Source of the DNA: Synergistaceae bacterium
GTDB taxonomy: Bacteria > Synergistota > Synergistia > Synergistales > Aminobacteriaceae
Assembly (NCBI GenBank): GCA_012521675.1
Contig: JAAYLU010000016.1
Location: 1 to 45,900, forward strand
Reading direction: 5' to 3'
DNA: 45,900 nt
Numbering within the stretch: the first letter of the stretch is position 1; each line of letters starts with the position of its first letter. A model generated the notes under the pieces. It searched no databases. It had not been told where the DNA came from and saw nothing but the letters and a program-made list of their open reading frames with translations. This document shows, one piece after another, positions 33,265 to 36,487 of this stretch. The position numbers and the translations under genes were made by a program.

Positions 33265-33579
33265 ATGACGCTCAAAAGGAGAAGCATGGGCGCGCCCGGG
33301 CCGGAGACGGCGGCGCGCGCCGCCGAGACGGCGAGGATTGGCATGGACGAGGGGGAGATAGAGGCACTTGCCCGGTACATGGACGAGCTTCTGGACTTCG
33401 CGGACAGGCTGGCGGACGCCCCGACGGGGGAGATCGGGGACGCGCCTTCAAGCGGCGAGGCGAGGGAGGACGTGGTAATACCCTCCGACGTCCGGAGCTC
33501 AGTGCTGGAAGCCGCGCACTCGAGAAGGGACTCCTTCTTCGTCGTGCCCAGGATACTTGACGAACGGGAGGATTCGTAG
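33265..33579 (+). CDS. gatC: Glutamyl/aspartyl-tRNA amidotransferase subunit C
   Basis: A 104-residue GatC, which wraps GatA and GatB together. It has the typical helical start EGEIEALARYMDELLDFADRL and a C-terminal SRRDSFFVVPRILD that resembles the GatC tail. The first 20 residues are extra and basic compared with the family. GGGAGG lies at 33250-33255, about 9 bases before ATG 33265. It leads the gatC-gatA-gatB operon with 2-base gaps. Confidence 0.88.
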   Translation: MTLKRRSMGAPGPETAARAAETARIGMDEGEIEALARYMDELLDFADRLADAPTGEIGDAPSSGEAREDVVIPSDVRSSVLEAAHSRRDSFFVVPRILDEREDS

Positions 33580-33581
33580 AC

Positions 33582-35000
33582 ATGAGCCGGGCGTGCATTA
33601 CCGCGGTCGAGATCGCCTCCGACGTTCGGGATGGCGCCATGTCGGTGTCCGACGCAACCTCGGCCTTCCTAGAGATCTCCCGCGAACATGAACCGAGGCT
33701 CAACGCACTGCTTCACTCGATCGAGGGAGGCGATAGCAAGGGCGGCGCACGCACGGGCCCCCTCGCCGGCGTTCCGGTGCTGCTGGACGACGGCATCTGC
33801 GCGTCGGGAATGCCGACGACCTGCGCTAGCAGAATGCTCGAGGGTTGGATTCCGCCTTACAACTCGGCAGCGGTCGAGCTGCTGGAGGCGGCAGGTGCTA
33901 CGATCTGCGGCAAGTGCAACATGGACGAGTTCGGCATAGGCTGCTCCACCGAGACCTCCGTCTTCGGGCCGGTTTCGAACCCGCACGATCCGGGGCGGAC
34001 CTCCGGGGGGTCGGCGGGAGGATGCGCCGCAGCGGTCGCGGCTGGGTACGCGCCCTTGGCAATAGCGTGCGACACGGGAGGCTCCGTGCTTCAACCCGCG
34101 TCCTTCTGCGGGGTGTACGGCCTGAGGCCGACCTACGGCCTGGTCAGCAGGTGGGGCATCACCGCACTGGCTCCGTCCATGGACCAGCTCGGGATATTCT
34201 CACTCACGGTCGAGGACATCGCGCTCGCGCTTTCTGTCCTGTCGAGGCACGACTCAAGGGATGGGACGTCTGCCGGCGGGGAGCGCCCAGACTATCTATC
34301 GATCTGCAAACAGGCCGCAGCCGAGGGTGCGCTGAAGGGAAAGAGGATAGCGCTCATCAGGGAGGCGCAGGACGCCAACTCATCGTCCGACATATCACGG
34401 GCCCTCGAGAGGATCGCGGACCTCTGCCGCGATCAGGGCGCGGAGGTGGTCGATCTGTCGCTGCCGCTCTCCTTCAAGCACTCTCTCCCCTGCTTCCAGC
34501 TTCTGCTGGCGGCGGAGGCGAGCTCCAGCCTCGCGAGGTTCGACGGCATAAGGTACGGTCTCTCGTCCGACGCCGACTCGCTGAACGACCTCTATCTGAA
34601 GAACAGGGCGGCCGGCCTCGGGACGAAGGTCAAGACGATGGCCGCCGCGGGGACGTACATCCTCGGTGGCGAGCGATACGAGGACTGCTACCTTCGGGCC
34701 TCCTCGGCAAGGGCGGCGATCGCCCGCGAGCTGACGGAGGCCCTCTCGAAGTGCGACCTTGCAGCCTTGCCGGCGACGCCGACCGTCGCCTTCAAAAGGG
34801 GCGAGTTCGCCGATGACCCGTTTGGCATGCGGTCGTCGCAGGCCTTCACCGTCCAGGCGAGCCTTGCGGGGCTGCCCGCTCTCGTCATGGACGGCTCTGA
34901 CGGAGGACTGCCGGCGGGGGTCCAGTTCATAGCCTCGAGATGGGGAGAGGCGACCCTGCTGGCCACCGCATCGATCATCGAACGGGAGAGGGGACGCTGA
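33582..35000 (+). CDS. gatA: Amidotransferase subunit GatA with catalytic Lys replaced by Asp
   Basis: A 472-residue amidase-signature protein, the glutaminase subunit of GatCAB that makes Gln-tRNA and Asn-tRNA by amidation. Aligned by spacing, the family triad Lys-Ser-Ser (79/154/178 in S. aureus GatA) falls on Asp69, Ser144 and Ser168 here, with identical spacing of 75 and 24. The motif is PLAGVPVLLDDGICASG where others have IKDNIC; GGSAGGC replaces GGSSGGS (Ser to Ala at 145); the nucleophile motif is CDTGGSVLQPA. Catalytic Lys is therefore absent while the nucleophile and cis-serine remain. No frameshift or stop is seen and both partners are intact. It may have low activity or use another ammonia source. 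Confidence 0.9.
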   Translation: MSRACITAVEIASDVRDGAMSVSDATSAFLEISREHEPRLNALLHSIEGGDSKGGARTGPLAGVPVLLDDGICASGMPTTCASRMLEGWIPPYNSAAVELLEAAGATICGKCNMDEFGIGCSTETSVFGPVSNPHDPGRTSGGSAGGCAAAVAAGYAPLAIACDTGGSVLQPASFCGVYGLRPTYGLVSRWGITALAPSMDQLGIFSLTVEDIALALSVLSRHDSRDGTSAGGERPDYLSICKQAAAEGALKGKRIALIREAQDANSSSDISRALERIADLCRDQGAEVVDLSLPLSFKHSLPCFQLLLAAEASSSLARFDGIRYGLSSDADSLNDLYLKNRAAGLGTKVKTMAAAGTYILGGERYEDCYLRASSARAAIARELTEALSKCDLAALPATPTVAFKRGEFADDPFGMRSSQAFTVQASLAGLPALVMDGSDGGLPAGVQFIASRWGEATLLATASIIERERGR

Positions 35001-35002
35001 TC

Positions 35003-36487
35003 ATGGGGCGCGCATATCAGCCGGTCATCGGCCTCGAGATACACGTCCAACTCGCGACGAAATCAAAGCTCTTCTGCTCCTGCTCCACTGACTACATCGG
35101 GGCGGAGCCGAACAGCAACGTCTGCCCGATATGCCTCGGACTGCCGGGGGCGCTGCCGTCGCTGAACGCCAGAGCGGTAGAGCTGGCCGTGAAGGCCGCG
35201 CTCGGCCTCTCCTGCACCGTCAAGGACGGCACGATCTTCCACAGGAAGCACTACTTCTACGCCGACCTCCCCAAGGCCTACCAGGTAAGCCAGTTCGACC
35301 GCCCGGTCGCGGAGGAAGGAGAGCTGATCATAACGGGCGACGACGGCTCGCCAAAGCGAATAGGCATTACTCGCCTGCACATTGAAGAGGACGCGGGCAA
35401 GCTCGTGCACTCGGCCTCCGACGGCAGGCTGGAGGGGGCGGAGGAGTCCTTCGCGGACTACAACCGAGCGGGGGTGCCCCTCGCGGAGATAGTCTCGGAC
35501 CCGGACATAGGCTCGCCCAGAGAGGCCAGGGAGTACGTCGCTTCGCTCAGGAGGCTGGTTCGCTACCTCGGAGTGTCCGACGGCGACATGGACAAGGGCT
35601 CGATGAGGGTGGACGCCAACATCTCCATGGTCCAGCTTGACGAGGAGACGGGAAAGATAGTGCTGAGGGGGGAGAGGGCGGAGATAAAGAACATGAACTC
35701 CATGCGCTCCGTGGAGCGAGCCCTCGAGTACGAGATTCGCAGGCAGACCGAGGCCCTGGAGCGAGGCGCGACTCTTGTGCGCGAGACTCGTCACTGGAAC
35801 GACGCCGACGGGGTCACCACATCGATGAGGAGCAAGGAGGCGGCGCTCGACTACCGATGCATGCCAGACCCGGACCTGGGCCCGGTGAGAGTGACCGAGG
35901 AGATGCTCCAGGCGATCGAAAGCTCCCTGCCGGAGCTGCCGTGGGCCAGGGAGGCACGCTTCATAGCCGACTACTCGTTGAGCGAGGTCGACGCGGCCAT
36001 CTTGGTCGAGACGCCGGCCCTCGCGGACTACTACGAGGAGTGCGTCCGATCGGGTGCGGCCCCGGTGCGGGCCTCGAACTGGGTGCGCACCGAGGTGCTG
36101 CGCGTGCTGAACGAGCGGGGCGTGGCGATAGAGTCCTTCCCCGTCCCCCCGCGTGCGCTGGGAGAGCTGGTTCTCATGGTGGACGGAGGAAAACTCTCGA
36201 CCACGGCGGCCAAGGAAGTCTACGCGGAGATGACGGAGGGAACGTCCCTTGAGCGGGCCCTTGAAAAGTGCGGAGTCGGCGGGGAGATGTCCGGGGAGTC
36301 GCTGGCGGCCGTGGTGCGCAAGGTGGTGGACGAAAACCCGGACGTGCTGGCCGAGATCCTGAGCGGCAAGGACTCCAGGGGAAAGAAGAGGAAGTTCCTG
36401 TGCGGCCTCGTGATGAGGGAGACACGGGGACAGGCGGAATCGTCGGAAGTGGAGGAGATGATCGAGGCCCTCTTGAGGGAGCGATGA
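35003..36487 (+). CDS. gatB: Glutamyl/aspartyl-tRNA amidotransferase subunit B
   Basis: A 494-residue GatB that phosphorylates the misacylated Glu/Asp on tRNA and transfers ammonia from GatA. The N-terminal cradle begins YQPVIGLEIHVQLATKSKLF with a Cys-rich metal site (FCSCS and CPICLG). HYFYADLPKAYQVSQFD and VDANISM are typical. A C-terminal helical YqeY-like tail binds tRNA. The start is ATG 35003, 2 bases after the gatA stop, not the longer frame opening inside gatA. Length and motifs look normal, so the unusual GatA is not accompanied by decay of GatB. Confidence 0.95.
   Translation: MGRAYQPVIGLEIHVQLATKSKLFCSCSTDYIGAEPNSNVCPICLGLPGALPSLNARAVELAVKAALGLSCTVKDGTIFHRKHYFYADLPKAYQVSQFDRPVAEEGELIITGDDGSPKRIGITRLHIEEDAGKLVHSASDGRLEGAEESFADYNRAGVPLAEIVSDPDIGSPREAREYVASLRRLVRYLGVSDGDMDKGSMRVDANISMVQLDEETGKIVLRGERAEIKNMNSMRSVERALEYEIRRQTEALERGATLVRETRHWNDADGVTTSMRSKEAALDYRCMPDPDLGPVRVTEEMLQAIESSLPELPWAREARFIADYSLSEVDAAILVETPALADYYEECVRSGAAPVRASNWVRTEVLRVLNERGVAIESFPVPPRALGELVLMVDGGKLSTTAAKEVYAEMTEGTSLERALEKCGVGGEMSGESLAAVVRKVVDENPDVLAEILSGKDSRGKKRKFLCGLVMRETRGQAESSEVEEMIEALLRER

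Follow-up and report, generated by a model that had tools for sequence, protein, structure and literature searches.

GatCAB is commonly defined by glutamine-dependent ammonia channelling. The gatA gene of a Synergistaceae bacterium carries an Asp codon in place of the catalytic lysine, which raises the question of whether the complex can still use glutamine and, if it cannot, what such a GatA is kept for. We analyzed a window of 45,900 nucleotides (contig JAAYLU010000016.1, positions 1 to 45,900) belonging to a 2.2-Mb assembly of 121 contigs that is 97.6% complete, and compared its gat genes with those of related genomes.

An intact amidase-family protein encoded in a gat operon

The genes lysS, ligA, gatC, gatA and gatB and a gene for an EF-G-type GTPase are all located on the plus strand of the window. 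As the initial annotation had described, the gatA gene (33582..35000, +) is an intact open reading frame within an operon. It encodes 472 aa, starts 2 nt past gatC and ends 2 nt ahead of gatB. The deduced protein displayed the amidase-signature domain (PF01425, 379 bits; cut-off 27). Its score of 421.1 bits with TIGR00132 was below the curated equivalog cut-off of 481.1, and the same was observed for the GatA of a sister species (410.8 bits). Nonetheless, TIGR00132 was the top-scoring family by a wide margin. Furthermore, an AF2 model of the protein resembled the GatA structures 3h0l, 2df4 and 3kfu (TM about 0.9), and trees of GatA and of GatB placed both species among the members of the family, consistent with vertical descent of an operon gene. 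The protein thus has the fold, the operon, the cis-Ser, the nucleophile Ser and the partner GatB in common with GatA of S. aureus (2df4) and A. aeolicus (3h0l). In contrast to these, it lacks the catalytic Lys and the glutamine-binding Arg and Asp and scores under the TIGR00132 cut-off. Low-confidence loops of the AF2 model (117-123, 319-331 and 333-362) were considered as a sign of a disordered pocket and discarded, as an ordinary relative modelled with the same rows likewise showed weak loops at 127-133 and 353-370.

Loss of catalytic and glutamine-binding residues

To map residues, GatA was aligned by MAFFT to its homologues from S. aureus and A. aeolicus and to relatives, using S. aureus numbering for the reference; all codons are on the plus strand. 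The catalytic residues of the family are Ser-cisSer-Lys (PMC4027206). Both serines were present, cis-Ser154 at codon 144 (34011..34013) and the nucleophile Ser178 at codon 168 (34083..34085), while the triad was left incomplete by Asp (GAC) at codon 69 (33786..33788) in the position of Lys79. In the vicinity, Gly replaced Asn81 at codon 71 (33792..33794), Ala replaced Ser155 at codon 145 (34014..34016) and Leu replaced Arg180 at codon 170 (34089..34091). The exchanges of Lys79 and Ser155 had both been noticed initially. According to the alignment, this observation is right but understated, as the losses extend to the residues that bind glutamine. Arg358 was replaced by Met at codon 353 (34638..34640) and Asp425 by Gln at codon 420 (34839..34841); the equivalent residues of the yeast protein, R334 and D418, contact glutamine (PMC4027206). 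An E349K exchange occurred in the window species only, at a site that appears to correspond to the Glu supporting the glutamine-contacting Arg (yeast E330).

Among 130 aligned GatA-family proteins, which were picked by similarity and two conserved motifs and are no census of bacteria, column 79 was Lys in 126. Asp was found only in the window genome and its sister (present twice in the sample), and Ser in one other genome. We then counted broken near-invariant columns; 97 columns qualified as such by a conservation of 95% or more among 107 other GatAs. The window species had lost 20 of the 97 and the sister 16, with 15 in common, 12 of which carried an identical new residue in both species. 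The 107 other GatAs, evaluated by leave-one-out, had a median of 1 and a maximum of 8. Moreover, the two species agreed in 36 residues that are rarely found in 126 other GatAs, and many of these lie in active-site motifs. No new conserved Lys, such as a migrated one that could have compensated for the loss, was detected in the GatAs of the two species.

A sister species with the same changes

The sister species (G001) is the MAG 'Synergistetes bacterium UR.bin68' (JAKJGK010000012.1). Its GatA is 63% identical to that of the window species, and the gene order ligA-gatC-gatA-gatB is the same. The Asp codon is GAC as well, and the positions of Arg358 and Asp425 are occupied by Val and Leu. Substrate-binding positions hence differ between the window species and the sister (353 M/V, 420 Q/L, 118 G/S).

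A draft assembly of 121 contigs might give rise to sequencing, assembly or binning artefacts, but such an origin has practically no probability here. A change from Lys to Asp requires at least two base changes, so that a single base-call error is insufficient. In addition, the pattern is common to an independent MAG, which excludes a sequencing error as the source of Asp69, and both the GatA and the GatB tree group the two species with family members.

Degeneration of the glutaminase side

Rates of evolution were determined by the Nei-Gojobori method between the window species and the sister. The dN and dS values were 0.289 and 1.055 for gatA, 0.399 and 1.129 for gatC, 0.171 and 0.979 for gatB, 0.160 and 1.094 for ligA, and 0.060 and 0.876 for lysS, corresponding to dN/dS ratios of about 0.27 for GatA, about 0.17 for GatB and 0.15 for ligA. 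Between G003 and G006, two relatives whose GatA is ordinary, GatA was 78% identical and thereby better conserved than GatB (71%). In the window species and its sister the order was reversed, with 63% for GatA and 76% for GatB. The stem leading to these two species measured 0.56 in the GatA tree and 0.18 in the GatB tree, and their tips 0.41 and 0.34 for GatA and 0.18 each for GatB. The ratio of GatA to GatB path lengths between them was 2.05, compared with a median of 1.01 and a maximum of 1.77 in 230 pairs of ordinary genomes. By these measures GatA evolves at approximately double the rate of GatB in the window lineage. Selection on GatA is relaxed or shifted but still present. The dN/dS ratios, the intact frames and the recurrence of the changes in a second species support the earlier notion of a maintained but altered protein.

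The description of the neighbouring genes as normal was true for gatB and failed for gatC. The gatC gene (33265..33579, +; 104 aa) is fast-evolving. Its product matched PF02686 with 29.4 bits and TIGR00135 with 37.5 bits, below the cut-off of 47.1, and was 51% identical between window species and sister versus 68.5% for two relatives whose GatA is ordinary. The product of gatB (35003..36487, +; 494 aa) reached 513 bits with TIGR00133 (cut-off 315) and kept 70 of 72 near-invariant columns, which is the ordinary level. Judged by broken columns, and for GatC by rate, degeneration lies mainly on the side of the glutaminase, and GatB is spared. The sole two near-invariant changes in GatB, Y286C and F287M (35858..35863, +), affect the Tyr-Phe of the DYRYFPEPD motif, which is Cys-Met in the window species and Cys-Leu in the sister.

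Synthetases, amidases and tRNA in the genome

The genome contains only one gene of the amidase family (PF01425), which speaks against the second gatA that had been considered as a substitute. AsnRS (469 bits) and GlnRS (734 bits) were found above cut-off, and AspRS and GluRS are encoded as well. AsnA was not found in the genome, and matches to the asparagine-synthetase domain (PF00733) were weak, all below 30 bits. Since AsnRS and GlnRS are encoded, GatCAB should be dispensable for bulk charging of either tRNA.

A substrate for GatCAB would have to come from a non-discriminating AspRS or GluRS. Position 87 of AspRS, which we take to be a specificity determinant and number according to the E. 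coli AspRS sequence, was Met in the window genome and in 11 of 12 sampled genomes with AsnRS (Ile in the remaining one) and Leu in 12 of 12 sampled genomes without AsnRS, a correlation with about four independent changes behind it and with significance out of reach. This residue is a possible marker of a discriminating AspRS in Synergistota. With Met87, Asp-tRNA(Asn) is perhaps not formed, which would leave GatCAB without its usual substrate. Relatives with the same residue 87 retain a fully conserved GatA.

The gene set of the window genome is the same as that of Bdellovibrio and other bacteria with AsnRS and GlnRS that lack an Asn synthetase (PMC4206432). In Bdellovibrio, the combination of AsnRS, GlnRS, GatCAB and one AspRS with no AsnA or AsnB supports tRNA-dependent Asn synthesis, and the AspRS has proved non-discriminating and supplies GatCAB with Asp-tRNA(Asn) (PMC4206432). 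In the window genome, by contrast, the AspRS may be discriminating, and GatA is degenerate. A tRNA(Asn), sought for the U1-A72 pair that goes with GatCAB, was absent among the 40 tRNA matches in the assembly, and two anticodon patterns gave nothing in five genomes. No match among the 40 could be assigned to Asn, Asp, Cys or Phe, despite the completeness rating of the assembly.

A proposed structural role for GatA and its alternatives

We slightly favor the explanation that GatA has become a pseudo-glutaminase, kept as a structural component beside an intact GatB; this transamidase, if it is active, would draw on free ammonia. The catalytic Lys and the glutamine-binding Arg and Asp of GatA would have been lost in the ancestor shared by the window species and the sister. 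GatA would have retained the amidase fold, its position between gatC and gatB in the operon and, as we infer, its association with the complex. The ATP-dependent transamidase GatB would have been preserved, and a complex that still amidates misacylated tRNA would have to take free ammonia from solvent. Ample ammonia had initially been offered as the reason for tolerance; the loss would be tolerable as much because AsnRS and GlnRS charge both tRNAs directly. Since the catalytic Lys and the substrate contacts are gone, a replacement Lys is missing and the substrate-binding positions vary, glutaminase activity of GatA is very probably lost. Assembly of the complex was presumably kept, and the chances that the complex uses ammonia directly are about even. 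The retained nucleophile and cis-Ser count against this explanation, as do Met87 of AspRS and the acceleration of GatA and GatC, which resembles decay.

Free ammonia, which had been suggested initially, is a plausible and feasible source for the amidation. Yeast mitochondrial GatFAB with a truncated GatF has reduced glutaminase activity and still transamidates with NH4Cl, by which the glutaminase is bypassed (PMC4027206). Unlike this GatA, the yeast case is an engineered mutant with intact active-site residues. Human CPS1 lost its glutaminase cysteine. It is a natural enzyme that swapped glutamine for free ammonia and kept the ancestral glutaminase module in an inactivated form (PMC4655335). 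CPS1 differs in being another enzyme with another fold, and ammonia use by the GatCAB described here is proposed from comparison of sequences. The part of the literature covered yielded no report of a glutaminase-dead GatA in nature. If true, a lineage without glutaminase but with transamidase would mean that the two modules are separable in evolution, provide a natural system for studying ammonia entry and make a translation step of amino-acid-fermenting bacteria dependent on ambient ammonia.

A serious rival, and the main one, is that GatCAB is a slowly decaying relic, left without substrate by AsnRS, GlnRS and a discriminating AspRS, in which GatA erodes first. The presence of both synthetases, Met87 of AspRS and the acceleration of GatA and GatC would fit a relic, which we regard as a real but clearly minor probability. 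However, all three gat frames are intact in two species at a synonymous divergence near 1, GatB is constrained about as strongly as ligA and holds its near-invariant columns, and the AspRS correlation has the few independent changes mentioned above. Moreover, relatives that have an ordinary GatA and encode these same synthetases conserve GatA better than GatB, so GatCAB has a job there.

Re-purposing of GatA, with the pocket of Asp69, cis-Ser144 and Ser168 performing another reaction or binding another ligand, would account for the 36 residues common to this pair but otherwise rare, and for the identical Asp69. It is unlikely, as the substrate-binding positions differ between the species and the rate pattern fits relaxation; we also know of no precedent for Asp replacing the amidase lysine. 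The rewired mechanism suggested at the outset finds little support, given the differing glutamine-binding positions and the want of a new conserved Lys. That GatCAB still works on glutamine, because a catalytic base has been restored or because another glutaminase docks to GatB, is most improbable. The nucleophile and the cis-Ser are in its favor, but no new Lys is conserved, the glutamine-binding Arg and Asp are gone and the genome encodes a single PF01425 protein, a search that covers amidase-type glutaminases only.

Further unusual GatA proteins

Erosion of GatA in a genome from another family of the same order of Synergistota (G039) is independent of that in the window lineage. This GatA carries K79S, S154P and S155F and keeps Ser178, Arg358 and Asp425. 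Its tip branch measured 0.66 versus 0.23 for its sister G056, while the GatB tips were equal (0.23 and 0.24). GatB of G039 is intact; it deviates in 4 of 112 invariant columns, as many as in the window genome. The genome is listed as 100% complete and contains GlnRS but no AsnRS above cut-off, so that GatCAB should be essential there. This case provides the strongest indirect support for an ammonia-dependent function of GatCAB. A natural ammonia-specific GatCAB is put forward tentatively, at somewhat less than even probability. Synergistota would then have lost the glutaminase two or more times (in the window genus and in G039), and an intact GatB would amidate tRNA with free NH3; for G039, no other route to Asn-tRNA(Asn) is evident. 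G039 encodes two further amidase-like proteins, about 30% identical, with amidase motifs of their own and an N-terminal hydrophobic segment, by which they are apparently membrane-anchored. Convergent compensation by changes in the DYRYFPEPD loop of GatB was discarded, as G056, with an ordinary GatA, has an altered loop like that of G039.

Several other genomes displayed peculiarities at gat genes. In G015, listed as 100% complete, no gatA, gatB, AsnRS or GlnRS was found; its congener G029 has gatA and gatB, and an assembly gap is probable. The gatA gene L018 of another MAG (G051) has the nucleophile Ser178 changed to Phe (DTGGFIRQP), and GlnRS of the same MAG is split over two frames, possibly by an assembly error. 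Finally, the gatA gene of a Sumerlaeota MAG (L073) encodes Thr in place of cis-Ser154 (PGGTSGG) and keeps Lys79, Ser178, Arg358 and Asp425.
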